Below the pieces are notes generated by a model. That model saw only the letters and a list, made by a program, of their open reading frames with translations. It was not told where the DNA came from and ran no database searches. The position numbers were made by a program, and so were the translations under genes. Positions 1,910 to 19,042 of a stretch of 19,042 bases of DNA are shown here, one piece after another. Where the stretch lies: assembly GCA_024699005.1 (NCBI GenBank), contig JAILQN010000279.1, positions 1 to 19,042 of the forward strand. The letters run 5' to 3'. The number at the start of each line of letters is the position of its first letter. The first letter of the stretch is position 1. The DNA is from Clostridia bacterium (GTDB taxonomy: Bacteria > Bacillota_A > Clostridia > Oscillospirales > Acutalibacteraceae).

Positions 1910-3202
1910 TTATCCTTTGAATGCGGTATCACACAGATATTTCACAGTCCTGTATCTGTCCGTTTTGTCCGCACAGCCCATTACTACCGTTATCAGCAGC
2001 CGTTCGCCCTGCTTCGTCTTTTTCACTGCAGCCACGGCAAGACACTGACCTATGCCCGAATGCCAGCCTGTTTTTATTCCGCGGACGTAATCGATATAAT
2101 GATCTCCCCCGGGGATGACCAGGTCGTTGGTATTAGTGAACGTTCTGAAAACCGAACCGTCGGAGTTATATACCGTCGCTTCAGCCGCTGCGACAACGCG
2201 CTTTATAATGGGAAGTCTGTACAGCGCGTTTGCCAGAAGAGTCATATCATAAGCGCTCGTATAATGCCCCTCCGTGGGGAATCCGTCCGGACATGCGAAA
2301 TGTGAATCTTTCATGCCGAGGCTTTTCGCGGCGTTGTTCATACCGTTGACGAAAGCGGCTATTTCCGTCCCGATGCTCAGATCGTTTCTGTCCAAAGCTT
2401 TCCGTACGCTGTTCACGGCGAGCGTATACGCCGCGTCGCAGCCGGACGGCAGGAACAGACAGTACAGCATGTTTTCAAAGGTCATTTTCTGACCTTTATA
2501 GATCTCCGCCTTCGATGTATTGCTCTCGACGTAATCAAGCTCGTTTCCGACCCTGATGATATCGTCCGCTTTGAAATACGACGCCGCGACGTAGGCGGTC
2601 ATCATCTTCGTCATGCTGGCGGGCTCAAGCTTTTTATGGGCATTGTTTTCATAAATAAACCTGCCGGCTGTCGCGTCATAAACTACCGCCGCTTTGGAGA
2701 GGACCCTGGAATCGTCAAAGCTGTATACCGGGGGATCGTTCTTGGGCGTATCCTCTTCGGGAGATTTTGTGTTTTCCTCAGGCTGCCGGGAACTATGTTC
2801 CTCCTCTCCCGTCCCTGCCGGCAGCGGAGTGACCTGTATCAGTATATAGGACGGAGCATCAAGCTTCGCCGATACTCTGAGTATGGTCCTTGCGTCTTCG
2901 GCCAGTACGACGCCGTTGCGGTCAAAATCTGCGGCGTTCTGCTGATCGGCTCCGGCGTTATACAGGCTGGCCGATATCCTGAGCGCCAGTCTGGCGTCGG
3001 CGGCAGTAACATTATGATCGAAATCCACGTCGCCGACGTAAACATATATTTTATCCCCGGATGCTTCCTCATCCTGCCCGGCGTATTCGATATCCTCATC
3101 CCCGGGAAGCGGAACGTCATCCAAAGCATATGCGAATGCAGACGGGAATAAAAAGATAAAGGAAAGAATAACTGAAAAAATGATCTGGATACTTTTTTTC
3201 AC
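1910..3202 (-). CDS. D-alanyl-D-alanine carboxypeptidase (S11 family) with N-terminal dockerin-like module
   Basis: A secreted penicillin-binding DD-carboxypeptidase of 430 residues that would remove the terminal D-Ala of peptidoglycan stem peptides. The GTG at 3202 is chosen because GGAGG sits six bases upstream and a signal peptide follows at once. The longer frame to TTG 3262 would start inside the likely -35 box. Residues 1-27 are the signal peptide. Residues 56-115 hold two dockerin-like loops, both with complete D-x-D-x-[DN] spacing (D58/D60/D62/D69 and D92/D94/N96/D103), each followed by DAR-x-x-LR-x-SA-x-L. An acidic Pro-rich linker covers about 125-160. The catalytic domain follows: S196-M-T-K199 (nucleophile and base), S253-G-C255 at the SxN position, and K377-T-G. 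The usual Asn of SxN is Cys here. No C-terminal membrane anchor follows KTG; the protein ends soon after. The catalytic family is certain; retention at the surface through the dockerin is inferred. Confidence 0.93.
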   Translation of the reverse strand: MKKSIQIIFSVILSFIFLFPSAFAYALDDVPLPGDEDIEYAGQDEEASGDKIYVYVGDVDFDHNVTAADARLALRISASLYNAGADQQNAADFDRNGVVLAEDARTILRVSAKLDAPSYILIQVTPLPAGTGEEEHSSRQPEENTKSPEEDTPKNDPPVYSFDDSRVLSKAAVVYDATAGRFIYENNAHKKLEPASMTKMMTAYVAASYFKADDIIRVGNELDYVESNTSKAEIYKGQKMTFENMLYCLFLPSGCDAAYTLAVNSVRKALDRNDLSIGTEIAAFVNGMNNAAKSLGMKDSHFACPDGFPTEGHYTSAYDMTLLANALYRLPIIKRVVAAAEATVYNSDGSVFRTFTNTNDLVIPGGDHYIDYVRGIKTGWHSGIGQCLAVAAVKKTKQGERLLITVVMGCADKTDRYRTVKYLCDTAFKG

Positions 3203-3233
3203 GGTTGCCTCCGATGTAAATGTCTTCCTTTGT

Positions 3234-3262
3234 ATTGTACTCCTGCCGGACAAACTATGCAA
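3234..3262 (-). promoter_or_regulatory. Probable promoter of the dockerin-carboxypeptidase gene
   Basis: On the minus strand, TTGCAT (3257-3262) and TACAAT (3234-3239) are separated by 17 bases. The -10 box matches consensus at five of six positions; the -35 box is weak. The predicted transcript start lies about 25 bases upstream of the GTG at 3202, leaving room for the GGAGG site at 3209-3213. Confidence 0.6.
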
Positions 3263-4429: not shown

Positions 4430-6415
4430 TCAGAGATTTATATTGCCGTGATCCTTGAAGAGCAGGCCTATCGCTCTGAAAATACTGCGCAGGAACTCCA
4501 GGAATTTGAACAGGAAGCCGCGGGACGGATCGGTCGCGGGATCCCCGTCGTTGGTAAAGGTCTTCCTGGCTTTCTTTTCGACTATCTCGTACGTGAAGCT
4601 CGCGGAAGCATAAGGATGGTCGGAGAGCATGCGCTCGGCGTCATCCTCGGAATAGATCCTGCCGTAGCCGAAGCTCGTCAGATGAAGATCCAGACCGTTG
4701 CCGCTGGCGTACATGATCCTCTCCACGGAATCATAGAAGCCCTCGCGGTACAGATATTCGTCTACCCCAGCAGGTACGGAGTCGCGCCTGGCGTATTCGT
4801 AATAGAGCCCGTAATCGAAATCCGGATCGCTTACATTCTCGGTGATCTCCGCCCTGTCCCTGACGGCCCAGGCGTCGTTGAGGTGCGCCTTCTCTATAAG
4901 GTTTTCAATAAGCCTGGAGTTGCCGGGGGTATCCTCGGACGAAATATAGGTGTTGAAGTCGCCGCCTACGATGACCGCGTGATCGTAAACGCCCTTGTCC
5001 GGATCATAAACGGAGTGAGCCATGATATACTGCGCAAGCTGATCGAACTGGGCGGCTCTCGCTGCCACGTCCGCCGCTGAACCGCCGGCGTCGGCGTGCA
5101 GATTGTAAACGTCGAGATAATAACCTTCCTCAAGTTCGACCGTTGTGACGGAAAAGCCTTTGGGGGTCAGCTCGTCGTTAAGATCATCAGCTATACCGTT
5201 AGCCTCGTTCCATGCGACCCTGGAGGTGTTGTAAAGGCTGTAAGCGCCGGAGAAAGTGTTGAGACCGTCGCCCATGGGCACGCCGCCCTTGTGCTCCGTG
5301 CCGTGACGGTGCGCAAGAGAATTGGTATAATCGATGACTATATTTTCTATCTCCTTGCCGCAGTCCGGGCAGATTATGCTGTTCGTCTCAATGGTCGCTT
5401 CGTTGGTCGCGATGTTGACCGTATCGCAGTAGGGGCAGATAACGGCGGGATCGCGCAGGTCGACGACAGTGTCCCTGTCGACGGGCATAAGCACGCCGCA
5501 TGCGTCGCAGAACTCGCCGTTCTCATCTATAGCGTCGTCGTCGGCAAAATAGTTTTTGACTCCGCAGCCCGGGCACTCGATATAAGCTTCACAGACAAGA
5601 CCGTCCTCAAAATAAACTCTCTTGCCGCAGCCGTCGCCGGCGCAGATCAGACTCTCCCTGGAGGCAAGATCGGCGGCGGTGAACTCCACGGTCGCTTCGC
5701 AGCTCTCACATTCGACCTTATGAACGTCTGCGTAGAACTCCATTTCCTGACGCAGATACTGATCGTAGTTAAAATCCTCCTGTAAAAGCAGGAACTCGGA
5801 CTGAAGGGGATAGCTCGCATCCTTATAGGCGTCGTCGATATCCAGCTTGTCGATCAGATCGGCCTTCGCGCTGCGGCGGGCGGCTATTTTGTCCTCATCG
5901 GAACGGATATGCGCGTCCATGACAGCGATCTGCTCCGCATTGGCGGTGAACTGAGCGTTCAGCTCCGCTATCTCGGCGTCCAGCTGAGCAAGTACGGCCT
6001 CGTCCTCCACGCCCTCTTTCTGGGCGACCTTTCCGTCGATATTACCGAGCAGAGCCGCCTGCATGAGACGCATCTCCTCTATATCCCCGTTGACCGAAAC
6101 TATATCCGCCTCATAAGCGGCGATCTTCGCGTCGATACGTTCTATGCGGGTGTTGATCTCGGCGATCTCCTCATCGGAAAGGCCCACGTAGCCCAGACGT
6201 CTGCCCATCTGTATGGCGTCCGTCAGGGGGTCGCCTTCGGCATCATCCCCGCCGTACCCCTCGGGTATGGGAAGACCGGCAACGTTCTGGACCAAAACGC
6301 TGAAAGCGCCGCTGTCGCCGATATCCGCAGCTGATGCCGCAACGCTTACCGCACAGAGCGTCATCAGCGCAGCCAGGAAAACGGCAAGTGATTTTCTGAT
6401 GGTTTTGTAATACAT
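4430..6415 (-). CDS. Secreted endonuclease/exonuclease/phosphatase-fold protein with coiled-coil and triple zinc-ribbon insertions
   Basis: A 661-residue exported metal-dependent phosphoesterase of the DNase I-like (EEP) superfamily. Start ATG 6415 follows AAAGGG and begins a clear signal peptide (1-30); the longer frame to 6478 would run into the promoter. EEP pieces appear in order: QNVAGLP (43-49), LLLQEDFNY with the metal Glu E213, a His-rich GGVPMGDGLNTFS stretch (369-390), YNLHAD with H440, GGDFNT with D486 and N488, and SDHPY with D599/H600. All main catalytic motifs are present. Two insertions split the front of the fold. Residues about 79-190 are a charged coiled coil. Residues 236-352 hold six Cys pairs (CESC, CAGDGC, CPGC, CDAC, CPYC, CPDC), which fit three tandem zinc ribbons. 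The C-terminus (633-654) is an amphipathic, hydrophobic stretch. The substrate is unknown (nucleic acid, phospholipid or phosphosugar). Zinc ribbons on an exported protein are unusual. Confidence 0.88.
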   Translation of the reverse strand: MYYKTIRKSLAVFLAALMTLCAVSVAASAADIGDSGAFSVLVQNVAGLPIPEGYGGDDAEGDPLTDAIQMGRRLGYVGLSDEEIAEINTRIERIDAKIAAYEADIVSVNGDIEEMRLMQAALLGNIDGKVAQKEGVEDEAVLAQLDAEIAELNAQFTANAEQIAVMDAHIRSDEDKIAARRSAKADLIDKLDIDDAYKDASYPLQSEFLLLQEDFNYDQYLRQEMEFYADVHKVECESCEATVEFTAADLASRESLICAGDGCGKRVYFEDGLVCEAYIECPGCGVKNYFADDDAIDENGEFCDACGVLMPVDRDTVVDLRDPAVICPYCDTVNIATNEATIETNSIICPDCGKEIENIVIDYTNSLAHRHGTEHKGGVPMGDGLNTFSGAYSLYNTSRVAWNEANGIADDLNDELTPKGFSVTTVELEEGYYLDVYNLHADAGGSAADVAARAAQFDQLAQYIMAHSVYDPDKGVYDHAVIVGGDFNTYISSEDTPGNSRLIENLIEKAHLNDAWAVRDRAEITENVSDPDFDYGLYYEYARRDSVPAGVDEYLYREGFYDSVERIMYASGNGLDLHLTSFGYGRIYSEDDAERMLSDHPYASASFTYEIVEKKARKTFTNDGDPATDPSRGFLFKFLEFLRSIFRAIGLLFKDHGNINL

Positions 6416-6465
6416 ATAGCTCGCCCTTTCTTTCTGTTCATGAATGAATAAACTTCTACGGAATG

Positions 6466-6494
6466 AGTATAACATCAAAACTTTAAACTGTCAA
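6466..6494 (-). promoter_or_regulatory. Consensus vegetative promoter of the EEP-fold gene
   Basis: TTGACA (complement of 6489-6494) and TATACT (complement of 6466-6471) are separated by exactly 17 bases on the minus strand. The predicted start is about 45 bases before the ATG at 6415. It lies between the MltG stop at 6541 and the signal-peptide gene, so that gene can be transcribed on its own. Confidence 0.88.
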
Positions 6495-7840: not shown

Positions 7841-8374
7841 TCAGTATTGCATCTGAGCAAGTATCTTATCCGCCGTTTCTCTGTCCTTAACGGCGGCGAT
7901 TATCTCCGCGCCGAATTCAAACGCGGCGCCGGCGCCTCTCGCCGTGACGATATTTCCGTCGGTAACGGCTTTTGCTTCGGTGACGACCGCGCCGTAAAGC
8001 TCCTTTTCCCAGCCCGGGAAACAAACCGCGCGCCTGCCGGAAAGCAGATTCCTGTGTCCGAGTACGGACGGGGCGGCGCAGATGGCGGCGACTATCCCGC
8101 CCGCGCTGTTGACCTTATCGATCATCGCCTGCACACCGGCGCTTGCCTCAAGGTTTTTTGTTCCCGGCATGCCGCCGGGCAGTATCACCGCTTCGGGGAT
8201 ACCGACAGCCTTGTCGACAGTCATATCGGCAACTATCCCGACCCCGTGAGAGGAAGTAACAGTGCCGCCAGTCACGCCGACGGTCCGCACGTCCAGACCG
8301 GCCCGTCTCATCATATCCAGGGGGATTATCGCCTCGGACTCCTCAAAACCGTCCGCCAAAAACAGATAAATCAT
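7841..8374 (-). CDS. DJ-1/PfpI family protein (YajL/ThiJ type)
   Basis: A 177-residue cytosolic protein of the DJ-1 superfamily, whose members handle oxidative stress, glyoxal damage or chaperone roles. The nucleophile elbow is AICAAPS with C99, and the acidic partner is E14 in GFEESEA, matching the Cys-Glu pair of human DJ-1. The length is standard for a single-domain member. The start overlaps the upstream cohesin-like gene by four bases (ATGA, 8371-8374), which implies translational coupling. The exact activity (deglycase, glyoxalase III or other) cannot be told from sequence. Its position between a surface protein and MltG is odd and may be only co-transcription. Confidence 0.92.
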   Translation of the reverse strand: MIYLFLADGFEESEAIIPLDMMRRAGLDVRTVGVTGGTVTSSHGVGIVADMTVDKAVGIPEAVILPGGMPGTKNLEASAGVQAMIDKVNSAGGIVAAICAAPSVLGHRNLLSGRRAVCFPGWEKELYGAVVTEAKAVTDGNIVTARGAGAAFEFGAEIIAAVKDRETADKILAQMQY

Positions 8375-9042
8375 TTTTTATCACCCTTTTTTCGCATCAT
8401 GAACACCGCGGCAATTGCAGACACCGCCGCGACCGCCGCGACCGCCGCGATGCAGATAACAAGAATGCCCTTCTTTGTGCCTCCGGATTCCGTCTGTTCA
8501 GTTGATTCTTCTGCGGCCGAAACGCTGATCTCGTATGTCATGTCGCGGTCTGTGATAGTCCCGCTGAGTTCCGTCGGCTGCACATCCACCCTCGTTGTGT
8601 CCGGATCCATGGCGCAGGAATCGGTATAAGCCCTTAAACTGAAACTGTCCGCTCCGTCCCTTACGTTGAACGTGACCGTCGCGACCACGCAGGATCCGTC
8701 CTCGGGCAGCACGTCGGCGGGAGCGTAATACAGATCAATGAAAGTTATATTCACCCTGTCGCCGGTCTCTTCATCCAGTCCGGCAATAAAGTTCTCAGTC
8801 GATCCCAGCTGCGGGGTCCTGCAGCTGACGAATTCAAGTTCGTCCGGGTCGAACTGTATGCGGTAATCGGCGCTCTCGGTGCCTACGAAGTTGTTGACTG
8901 TCAGATATACGGTCAGGATGCTTCCGTCGGCGGAATACTCTGCGGAAAGCGCAAGCTCGGGGACATCCCACGCCGAGGCGGACGCCGCGGCTGCAAAAAG
9001 AAGCGCTGCAACGCATAATACGGATAAAACTGTTCTTTTCAT
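8371..9042 (-). CDS. Cohesin-like domain protein with C-terminal membrane anchor
   Basis: A 223-residue surface protein. The ATG at 9042 starts a signal peptide (MKRT..., 1-24); a longer frame to 9078 would spoil it. No strong ribosome site is seen. Residues about 28-165 are a beta-sandwich like type I cohesins: LTVYLTVNNF, then DYRIQFDPDELEFVS, a NITFIDLYYAP strand, and an edge strand after DGSCVVATVTFNVRDG. This pattern fits the cohesin/CBM-like superfamily. A Ser/Thr/Glu linker (176-190) leads to one hydrophobic helix (191-215) ending in RKKGDKK, so the domain faces out. It could bind dockerin-like modules such as those at 483-547 of the 168-1811 product and 56-115 of the 1910-3202 product. 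Binding is inference. It could also be a plain carbohydrate-binding beta-sandwich. Confidence 0.78.
   Translation of the reverse strand: MKRTVLSVLCVAALLFAAAASASAWDVPELALSAEYSADGSILTVYLTVNNFVGTESADYRIQFDPDELEFVSCRTPQLGSTENFIAGLDEETGDRVNITFIDLYYAPADVLPEDGSCVVATVTFNVRDGADSFSLRAYTDSCAMDPDTTRVDVQPTELSGTITDRDMTYEISVSAAEESTEQTESGGTKKGILVICIAAVAAVAAVSAIAAVFMMRKKGDKK
8423..8449. repeat. Three 9-bp tandem units in the membrane-helix codons
   Basis: ACCGCCGCG is repeated three times without change (8423-8431, 8432-8440, 8441-8449). It lies in the gene for the cohesin-like protein and encodes part of the Ala/Val membrane helix. A gain or loss of one unit would keep the frame and change helix length by three residues. 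Confidence 0.85.
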
Positions 9043-9115
9043 AATAATCATCTCACGTGTCAGGTTATCTGTTGACAAATACAGGCTTTCATATCCCGTA
9101 TTCTTTAACTGTCAG

Positions 9116-16257: not shown

Positions 16258-17526
16258 TTACCTGTTGCCTGTTCTCAGCACCGCGTCCGCCGCGGACATC
16301 ACGCCGAGTTTGCCCGAGGCAAAATTCAGTCCGCCCTGCATCCATACGGCGAAAGGCTCGCGCAGGGGAGCGTCGCCGGACAGCTCTATCGAGGAACCGC
16401 CCGTAAAGGTCCCCGCTGCCATGATCACCTTGCAGGGGTAACCGGGCATATCCCAGGGTTCCGGGGTCAGGAAGGAATCCACCGGCGAACACGCCTGGAG
16501 CCCTCGGCAGAACGCGATAAGATTTTCGCTGTTTTCAAGCCTGAGAGCCTGAACTATGTCGTGCCTTTCTTCAAGTGAAGACGGAGCCGCGGAAAAGCCC
16601 AGCTCTTCAAACAGCGCCGCGGAGAACACGGCGGTCTTGAGAGCCTCGCCCACCACGTGAGGCGAATGGAAGAGCCCGAGCAGGATATCCCTGTCGTTCC
16701 CGAGGGTAGCGCCGACTTCCCGTCCCAGGGAAGGAGCCGTCATTCTGTAGGCGCAGAGCTCCACGAGCTCCCGTTTCCCGGCTATATAGCCGCCCATCCT
16801 GGCGACTCCGCCGCCGGGATTCTTTATAAGGGAGCCGACCAGTATATCCGCCGCGGGTTCATCCGGCTCAACGAATTCGCCGTAACAGTTATCCACAAAG
16901 ACTACAGAGTCGCTCACTTCTTTAACAGCCCCGACAAGGGCGTTGATCTCCCGGACCCCGAGGCTGGGTCTTAAAGAATACCCCCTTGAACGCTGGATAT
17001 AAACAAGCCTGATCTTCTCTTTTTCAAGAGTTTCCACAACCGCCGGTATATCTATTCTTCCGTCCTCAGTCAGGTCGATCTGCTTATAAGCGACGCCGAA
17101 GTCCCGCAGACTGCCCCTGACCTCGCCGCCATTCCTTTCATCGACGCCCATTACCGGACAGATGGTATCGTAGGGCCTGCCGGAGACGCACAGCATCGTA
17201 TCTCCCGGACGCAAGAGCCCGAACAGTGCGACCGTCAGGGTATGAGTACCGCTGGTGAAGGTGTAGCGGATAAGGGAGTCCTCCATGCCGAAAACCTGAG
17301 CGCATACGGCGTCTGCCTTTTCGCGCCCGACGTCGCCGTAACCGTAACCGGTCGAGCCCCACAGGTCGGTCTCCGCCACCCTGTTGTCTATAAAGGCTCT
17401 GAGGACCTTGCGCTGGTTGTATTCCGCGACGGCGTCGATCCGGGCGAACATGCCGCCTGTTTTTTCAAGGGCAGCCTCCGCTGCGTCGTTTACTTTTGTG
17501 TCAAATGCAAAGAAATCGTTTTTCAT
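16258..17526 (-). CDS. PLP-dependent methionine gamma-lyase / aluminium-resistance family protein
   Basis: A 422-residue cytosolic fold-type I PLP enzyme that matches the Met_gamma_lyase (aluminium resistance) family. PLP Lys K235 is in VGSLIKNPGGG; the preceding Asp D212 in VVFVDNCYGEFVE is the PLP-nitrogen partner; GTHTLTVALFG (93-103) is the phosphate loop region. Length is that of the family, and a C-L/G-rich end block (VWMQGGLNFASGK, about 394-406) is typical. In vivo chemistry is uncertain: gamma-lyase action on Met or another C-S lyase step. ATG 17526 has no Shine-Dalgarno site. A consensus promoter lies about 150 bases upstream, so the transcript carries a hairpin-rich leader. Confidence 0.92.
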   Translation of the reverse strand: MKNDFFAFDTKVNDAAEAALEKTGGMFARIDAVAEYNQRKVLRAFIDNRVAETDLWGSTGYGYGDVGREKADAVCAQVFGMEDSLIRYTFTSGTHTLTVALFGLLRPGDTMLCVSGRPYDTICPVMGVDERNGGEVRGSLRDFGVAYKQIDLTEDGRIDIPAVVETLEKEKIRLVYIQRSRGYSLRPSLGVREINALVGAVKEVSDSVVFVDNCYGEFVEPDEPAADILVGSLIKNPGGGVARMGGYIAGKRELVELCAYRMTAPSLGREVGATLGNDRDILLGLFHSPHVVGEALKTAVFSAALFEELGFSAAPSSLEERHDIVQALRLENSENLIAFCRGLQACSPVDSFLTPEPWDMPGYPCKVIMAAGTFTGGSSIELSGDAPLREPFAVWMQGGLNFASGKLGVMSAADAVLRTGNR

Positions 17527-17748: not shown

Positions 17749-19042
17749 ATGGATTCAACACAAAAAACTCAAAACTCAAAACTCACCGCGACAGACGCGG
17801 ATATTATCGTAAAGGCGACTCAGGGTTCCGAGAACGCCAGAACGGATCTGTTCAAAAGGCACGTTAAACAGATATATTTTATCTGCGTAAGTCTGAGGGG
17901 ATATCTGCCCGACTCCGCCGATATCTGCGCGGATATTTTCGCCGATATGTACCGGGATCTGCCCGAGCTTGAAAAGATACTCGACTTCCGGCGCGGTTTT
18001 TATTCCGCAGCGGTCTCCTACTGCGTCAAAAGGACCCTCGAGACTCCGGTCAGGAAGACCAGAAGCGTCGAAACGGCTCTTGCGGACCTCGCAGACAAAG
18101 CCTCGGCCGCTCTTGACAGGGGGCTTACGAACGACTACGAGATCCTCCTGTATCAGATGCTCGGCGTGATAATAGACTATATGCCGCTGAAACAGACCGC
18201 GGCTCTTCTGTATTTTGACTTTGCCGGAGGCATCGCCGAGGCAGCTGCGGACTATCCGTTCCTTGACGCGGAAAATATATCTGCTCACAGACAGGCGGCG
18301 GCGGATTATATAAACCGTCAGACTGCTTTTTTGAAGAGCAGAAACATCGACATCGCCGATATAACTTCCGATTTGCCGGCAGCCCTCGACAGACTCGCGG
18401 AGGATACACCTGTCCCGGCGGCGGCCTATACTCTCACCGCCAAAAAAACGGGCGTGCATCTGCGTCCGCCGAAACACGAGGTGATAAGCGCGCCGGAAAA
18501 AAACAGGAGTGAGGGGAAAAACGACGGAAAAACCGCAAAAACAAACAAACGGGACATCCTTATCGTTATCGCAGTCATACTTGCGATCGCTCTGATCCTG
18601 ACGGTCATCGGAGCGCTGCGCGGGAAGAAGGCAAATAACGAAACCGACAGCGGGGATGAAAACGCAAACGCCGTCGTTTACTGGGACGGCGAGGTCGCGT
18701 CCGGTTTCGCATCCGGCGAGGGCACAGCCGATTCGCCGTACGTTATCACCACCGGAGCTGAGCTCGCTTATCTCAGTCAGCAGGTCGCCGCCGGCAACGC
18801 AACAGTTTTGGCGGCGAATTATATTCTGGGGACCAATATAGCTCTCAACACTACCGCAAAGTATTCCGATTGGGATAAAAATCCGCCCGAGCACGCATGG
18901 ACTCCCATAGCCCCCTTCAACGGGGTGTTTGACGGTAACGGTCATACCATAAGCGGCGTCTATGTAAACAACGTCGATTGCGGCGGTCTGTTCGGGCAAA
19001 TCAACAACGCGACGGTCAAAGACCTCAACGTGGAAAGTTCCT
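17749..19042 (+). CDS. Partial: sigma-70-like domain, membrane helix and GLUG-type extracellular domain
   Basis: An open frame that runs off the window after 431 codons, with no stop in view. Residues 16-75 look like ECF sigma region 2: TDADIIVKATQGSE, then ADICADIFADMYRD where a typical region 2 has EDLxQEVFxxAWR. Residues about 130-190 look like a worn region 4 (YQMLGVIIDYMPLKQTAALL). A variable, acidic-basic linker follows (200-268), then a single membrane helix (269-291) with RGKK after it. The outer part begins as GSG-type GLUG proteins do: SGEGTADSPYVITTGAELAYL, WTPIAPFNGVFDGNGHTISGVYVNN, CGGLFGQINNATVKDLNV. The sigma-like part lies before the helix, so it is in the cytoplasm. Start ATG 17749; ATG 17731 (MYYKTV) is in frame, too. 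Neither has a ribosome site. DNA binding by the N-terminus is not proven; it may be a degenerate scaffold. Confidence 0.75.
   Translation, partial: MDSTQKTQNSKLTATDADIIVKATQGSENARTDLFKRHVKQIYFICVSLRGYLPDSADICADIFADMYRDLPELEKILDFRRGFYSAAVSYCVKRTLETPVRKTRSVETALADLADKASAALDRGLTNDYEILLYQMLGVIIDYMPLKQTAALLYFDFAGGIAEAAADYPFLDAENISAHRQAAADYINRQTAFLKSRNIDIADITSDLPAALDRLAEDTPVPAAAYTLTAKKTGVHLRPPKHEVISAPEKNRSEGKNDGKTAKTNKRDILIVIAVILAIALILTVIGALRGKKANNETDSGDENANAVVYWDGEVASGFASGEGTADSPYVITTGAELAYLSQQVAAGNATVLAANYILGTNIALNTTAKYSDWDKNPPEHAWTPIAPFNGVFDGNGHTISGVYVNNVDCGGLFGQINNATVKDLNVESS
17764..17784 (+). repeat. Three-unit AAAACTC heptanucleotide tract in the start of the sigma-like gene
   Basis: AAAACTC is repeated three times without change (17764-17770, 17771-17777, 17778-17784), covering codons 6-12. 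Seven is not a multiple of three, so one unit gained or lost would shift the frame right after the start. Three units is short for frequent slippage. Confidence 0.85.

Follow-up and report, generated by a model that had tools for sequence, protein, structure and literature searches.

Several extracytoplasmic function (ECF) sigma factors have been described in which the sigma domain is joined to a membrane part: ECF48, ECF52 (SCO4117), ECF53 and IutY (PMC8999054, PMC5826349). Here we report on a comparable gene from a Clostridia bacterium, located at the end of a 19,042-nucleotide stretch of contig JAILQN010000279.1 (the window, which is the whole stretch that was analysed). The gene corresponds to frame 17749-19041 (+), has 431 residues and is still open at the window's last base. 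It combines a sigma-like domain, a transmembrane helix and an extracellular module in one chain. The reading that we favour, and hold to be nearly as probable as its contrary, is that its product is a receptor which crosses the membrane once and whose cytoplasmic part derives from an ECF sigma factor, but probably no longer reads promoters.

According to the available descriptions, ECF48, ECF53 and ECF52 (SCO4117 from Streptomyces) share with the window protein the presence of an ECF sigma domain and a transmembrane helix in one chain, and ECF52 also has an extracellular carbohydrate-binding module (PMC5826349, PMC8999054). They are actinobacterial and described with a zinc-finger domain. The window protein has a degenerate sigma part, and no zinc-finger family matched it up to E 10 or any of four relatives up to E 1. 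A conserved juxtamembrane element lies between sigma part and transmembrane helix in place of an ECF52-type zinc finger. IutY (ECF243, Pseudomonas) is also a fusion of a sigma factor to a membrane part, for which proteolytic release has been reported (PMC8999054); it differs from the window protein in being an active sigma factor of iron-siderophore surface signalling. The first-pass annotation of this DNA had assumed that in known systems the anti-sigma factor is a protein of its own. These fusions do not support the assumption, nor do 20 scanned long relatives (see below), all of which have a sigma domain and a transmembrane-like helix in one frame.

PhyR from Alphaproteobacteria has, like the window protein, an ECF fold in which the promoter and core regions are degenerate. 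It is described as titrating an anti-sigma factor (PMC8103513). In PhyR, however, the sigma-like domain is the N-terminal part of a phosphorylated response regulator, for which the available description mentions no membrane part. A receiver domain was detected neither in the window protein nor in four relatives when these were scanned for protein families. SigI/RsgI from Clostridium likewise ties an outer sensor across one membrane to sigma control, and RsgI is reported to be cleaved by RseP (PMC12203970), but RsgI is an anti-sigma factor and separate from SigI. What sets the present case apart is a degenerate yet conserved branch whose members have an outer domain of GLUG-like type and, in most of the relatives' loci, lie next to a gene for a leucine-rich repeat (LRR) membrane protein; an intact set of related proteins stands out by its range of sensors. 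A literature search of titles and abstracts, with most subscription journals outside its scope, returned no paper on these proteins.

Layout, relatives and lost contacts of the window protein

The predicted cytoplasmic sigma-like domain spans about residues 13-197. Its region 2-like part (residues 13-100; 17785..18048, +) is indicated by an AlphaFold2 (AF2) model, by a structural match to region 2 of sigma-E/SigW and by a profile match; its region 4-like part (residues 127-197; 18127..18339, +) has a recognition helix without basic DNA-contact residues. The juxtamembrane helical element which follows (residues 200-236; 18346..18456, +) is conserved in the family (alignment A3) and confidently modelled, with block means of the predicted local distance difference test (pLDDT) of 93-97 across residues 191-240. 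Next comes a charged variable linker (residues 237-269; 18457..18555, +), where the block means drop to 31-46 (residues 241-270). The predicted transmembrane helix (residues 270-288; 18556..18612, +; previously placed at 269-291) has a hydropathy of 3.35 and is oriented N-in, with a charge of +3 on the preceding and -3 on the following flank. The window ends within a GLUG-like extracellular beta domain, of which the start (residues 309-431; 18673..19041, +) could be delimited by alignment with full-length relatives. These relatives (n=18, alignment A3) have 637-681 residues and the same domain order; we refer to the window protein and its relatives of this layout as the GLUG-sigma branch. A regular expression composed for the juxtamembrane element matched 17 of 22 relatives but was derived post hoc from the same relatives and was thus not used as evidence.

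In the fold comparison, the model of full-length P0002 matches 3n6z (5.4e-8), which is consistent with a GLUG-like outer domain. Pfam Glug stays below threshold in P0002 (0.13) and L047 (0.0014; 19.3 of 20.5 bits) and is absent from the others scanned. When the subgroup was searched via a profile in 398 genomes of the same family (E 1e-10) and 394 of the order (E 1e-30), 172 of the 398 family genomes matched. Among the matches listed, most cover the outer part alone, and only G002-G006, G011, G118 and G216 have matches spanning sigma and outer part. A first contig scan with a close alignment confirmed none of 120 stretches; a second, with a wider family alignment, gave 8 loci. A protein search with P0004 returned only P0004, the window protein, P0002 and P0003. 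P0005, an amidohydrolase with a sigma-part fragment that appears to be a chimeric contig, was omitted from the family alignment. So were P0007-P0010, taken as outer-domain-only by coverage and by the sequence of P0007.

The window protein has sigma2 and sigma4 domains with an ECF profile match, which points to descent from an ECF sigma factor. Pfam by itself does not detect this part; profile and fold evidence together do. A viral fold search gave nothing at 0.001, with phage sigma factors as the better-ranked named entries. Residues were compared between 20 branch members, later extended by eight to 28, 10 paralogs with a threonine-rich stalk (Thr-stalk set, see below) and 12 ordinary ECF factors, the latter being E. 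coli RpoE, SigW and 10 proteins from the relatives' own genomes. Of 20 reference stretches, 14 match E. coli RpoE at 1e-3 and six do not; four of the 14 (L059, L061, L065, L069) were excluded by eye as other sigma types. The 28-member counts omit L006, which differs from P0023; L001 equals P0017.

The recognition helix for the -35 element has a net charge of -6 to +1 in the 28 members (-1 in the window protein), with 27 of them at or below zero and P0004 at +1. Thr-stalk paralogs range from +3 to +6 and ordinary ECF factors from +1 to +5. At the position of sigma-E R176, 22 of the 28 members including the window protein have A and one has K, compared to K in all 10 Thr-stalk paralogs and R or K in all 12 ordinary factors. 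The window protein thus lacks the -35 recognition residues of region 4.2 expected for a working ECF factor. In sigma-H of M. tuberculosis, region-4 residues at what we map as the corresponding places are reported to be required for transcription (PMC6411747). In region 2, the 2.3 Trp and the 2.4 Asn, present in 12/12 ordinary factors, are replaced by G and S in the window protein; within its subgroup the Asn is lost in 4/4 and the Trp in 3/4 (P0003 retains it). The region 2.2 Gln persists in one of 28 members and is A in the window protein. In having an ECF fold whose contacts to DNA and core are degenerate, the window protein agrees with a PhyR-type mimic.

Ratios of nonsynonymous to synonymous substitution (dN/dS) were computed for six pairs, five of which have a sigma part close to or beyond saturation, L003-L007 being the exception. 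For L003-L007 they are 0.139 for the sigma part, 0.119 for the juxtamembrane element, 0.569 for the linker, 0.091 for the transmembrane helix and 0.092 for the outer domain. In this pair, the sigma part appears to be under purifying selection while the linker drifts. As the -35 contacts are lost and dN/dS is nevertheless low, the domain appears to be maintained, probably for a role other than promoter reading. The fold, the ordered juxtamembrane element, the transmembrane helix, the GLUG-like outer domain, the kinship within Clostridia and the loss of -35 contacts are, as judged from comparison and prediction, features of this protein.

Intact tethered paralogs and an LRR gene in the relatives' loci

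The genomes of the relatives encode a second paralog of 402-462 residues, in which the helix of sigma region 4 is basic and the sigma domain is accompanied by a similar juxtamembrane element, a transmembrane helix and, in those read, a Thr-rich stalk. One of these proteins, L054, exceeds the ECF cut-offs (67.5 bits to TIGR02937); the 2.4 Asn is present in 2/10 of the set. With the Thr-stalk profile (A7), at least 47 of the 398 same-family genomes were matched at E<=1e-15 by frames of 282-1303 residues, with at most five candidates scored per genome. Twenty places picked from this list, mostly high-scoring, held 22 frames matching the profile, and all 22 have one or more hydrophobic, transmembrane-like segments. 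Pfam was run on 20 of them: region 4 is above cut-off in 20/20 and region 2 in 19/20, L088 being the exception. Their outer parts include LRR_5 (six frames), a solute-binding domain (L081), DUF3298 (L088) and Big_2 (L096); 11 of the 20 had no outer Pfam match at 0.001.

In L081 (L081:892-3234, -), an intact ECF sigma domain and a transmembrane-like helix are followed by a family-3 solute-binding domain (SBP_bac_3, 6.5e-20); this is possibly a ligand-gated sigma factor in one protein. L088 (L088:1208-3310, +) joins an ECF sigma-like domain and a transmembrane helix to a DUF3298 outer part, with a PdaC match below threshold. We take this outer part to resemble the outer layout of the anti-sigma factor RsiV.

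In a tree of 62 sigma domains (midpoint root, bootstrap incompletely settled, L068 and L075 left out because they had been shortened by trimming to a first Met), the GLUG and Thr-stalk sets each form one group (96/90), and both together are split (99/95) from ordinary and other tethered factors. ECF262 (Ruminococcus albus SFB89493.1) is entered in Table 2 of PMC8999054 under 'Others' with a regulatory extension, and the entry states no mechanism. Our guess is that ECF262 might be the home of the intact tethered set, which may already be classified there.

A gene for an LRR protein lies 90-175 bases downstream on the same strand in 9 of 11 loci of relatives (L001-L007, L049, L050). It is not the next gene in L048 or in L047, where the contig has only about 500 bases left. 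Judged by eye, the protein has a signal peptide and, close to its C-terminus, a single transmembrane helix that leaves a short cytoplasmic tail rich in charges; its core is a BspA-type LRR (PF13306, 8.4e-32 in the L001 copy). Among nine window frames that were scanned, none was recognised as coding for an anti-sigma factor or a protease.

The genus of G006 comprises 11 genomes (completeness not given). A full GLUG-sigma gene occurs in eight and a sigma-only copy in G008, while the profile search found none in G009 and G010. In the G008 locus (L050:4531-5235, +), the sigma-like frame ends at 234 residues, before the transmembrane helix, and the outer domain is absent, so that the two halves are naturally separated. 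The LRR-transmembrane gene starts 115 bases after this frame.

Candidate modes of action

In the favoured receptor reading, the outer domain would bind a ligand that is extracellular or part of a surface; the signal would be relayed by the sigma-like domain through protein-protein contact. The partner might be an anti-sigma factor that is held or freed, a true ECF factor (tethered or free) or the tail of the LRR protein. The action would be comparable to the sigma mimicry by PhyR, yet membrane-based. A more specific version, which we hold to be possible but on the doubtful side, is a transmembrane pseudo-sigma receptor. Having lost the ability to read the -35 element, and with a recognition helix of neutral or reversed charge, it would stay at the membrane and soak up anti-sigma factors or sibling sigma factors under the control of a signal. 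It would exist alongside intact Clostridia ECF receptors with LRR, SBP_bac_3, RsiV-like and Ig-like sensors. If the set works as its domain order suggests, it would provide a route from the outside to transcription in a single chain with swappable sensors, for which histidine kinases and separate anti-sigma factors would be dispensable. Membrane-bound sigma mimicry would be represented by the degenerate GLUG branch; to our knowledge, sigma mimicry has so far been known from soluble PhyR. Both sets would offer a means of testing the silencing and the release of tethered sigma factors.

Several observations weigh against the receptor reading. Across the branch, the 2.3 Trp is retained in 23/28 and the 2.4 Asn in 18/28 members (11/20 in the first count), an acidic residue follows the 2.2 Gln position in 12/28 (the window protein has D for Glu), and 3/7 relatives exceed the TIGR02937 ECF cut-off. 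Region 2 is thus better preserved outside the window's subgroup, and some members could bind polymerase or melt DNA. The helix charge of P0004 falls within the range of ordinary ECF factors, and the region-4 alignment is uncertain for the GLUG-sigma branch. The dN/dS values depend on a single unsaturated pair. Furthermore, G118 (where about 500 bases of contig follow) and G216 have no LRR gene next to the GLUG-sigma gene but homologues on other contigs, and G009 has an LRR homologue despite lacking a GLUG-sigma match.

Some of these points bear on an alternative in which the protein is a latent transcription factor: an outside signal would trigger intramembrane proteolysis, and the freed sigma domain would steer polymerase to a small regulon. 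Such release has been proposed for ECF52 and shown for IutY (PMC8999054), and the layout of the window protein equals theirs. Regions 4 and 2 are above the Pfam cut-off in nearly all scanned long relatives, and the relatives of the window's own layout that pass TIGR02937, together with branch members that keep the 2.4 Asn and a good region 2, keep this explanation alive. The first-pass annotation had suggested release by proteolysis or clustering as the switch, should the sigma factor be real. We consider the proteolytic release of an active sigma factor the less likely reading for the GLUG-sigma branch because all but one member have a neutral or acidic -35 helix and because the window protein lacks the 2.3 Trp and the 2.4 Asn, as its subgroup largely does. 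Proteolytic release suits intact members of the wider set better. The annotation's observation of a sigma-like N-terminus, one membrane-crossing helix and a GLUG-like outer domain was confirmed, and its caveat that the sigma-like part may be worn out proved apt; of its interpretation, which is partly supported, the separate anti-sigma factor of known systems found no support.

The sigma fold might also be a mere cytoplasmic plug or scaffold of a surface adhesin, an exapted anchor with no regulatory role. The occurrence of the outer domain in other long proteins of the bacterial family would fit this, but in the one informative pair the constraint on the sigma part comes close to that on the outer domain and far exceeds that on the linker, and L050 keeps the sigma part without the outer part, which makes this explanation improbable. 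As SigO and RsoA are reported to work as a two-part sigma factor (PMC8103513), the GLUG protein with its better region 2 and a Thr-stalk paralog of the same cell with its better region 4 could be two halves of one factor. Their losses are complementary (K at the R176 position in 10/10 Thr-stalk versus 1/28 GLUG proteins, 2.4 Asn in 2/10 versus 18/28), they share a supported side of the tree, and they co-occur in genomes. Yet L054 resembles a complete ECF factor, the 2.4 Asn is missing from the window's subgroup, and G009 has a Thr-stalk match without a GLUG-sigma match; we regard such a split as very improbable.

Other genes of the window

The divergent neighbour of the GLUG-sigma gene (16258..17526, -) belongs to the methionine gamma-lyase family (PF06838, 2.7e-157); a gene of this family is likewise the divergent neighbour in L006 (1.8e-165). 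Ahead of it is a sigma-70-type promoter-like site with 12/12 matching positions and a 17-base spacer (17704-17676, -). The product of the gene at 4430-6478 (-) may, by eye, begin with a signal peptide; it has an exonuclease/endonuclease/phosphatase domain (Exo_endo_phos2, 3.1e-8) and zinc-ribbon-like cysteines (Zn_Ribbon_TF, 0.00019, below cut-off).

A D-Ala-D-Ala carboxypeptidase (1910-3262, -; Peptidase_S11, 6e-40) carries at its N-terminus a dockerin-like repeat that stays below the cut-off (Dockerin_1, 0.0061). A similar repeat was seen by eye at the end of a Listeria-Bacteroides-repeat protein (159-1811, +). A cohesin-domain protein with a C-terminal hydrophobic stretch is encoded at 8371-9078 (-; PF00963, 2.9e-8). 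It possibly forms, with the dockerin-like repeats in the same window, a small surface-display system.
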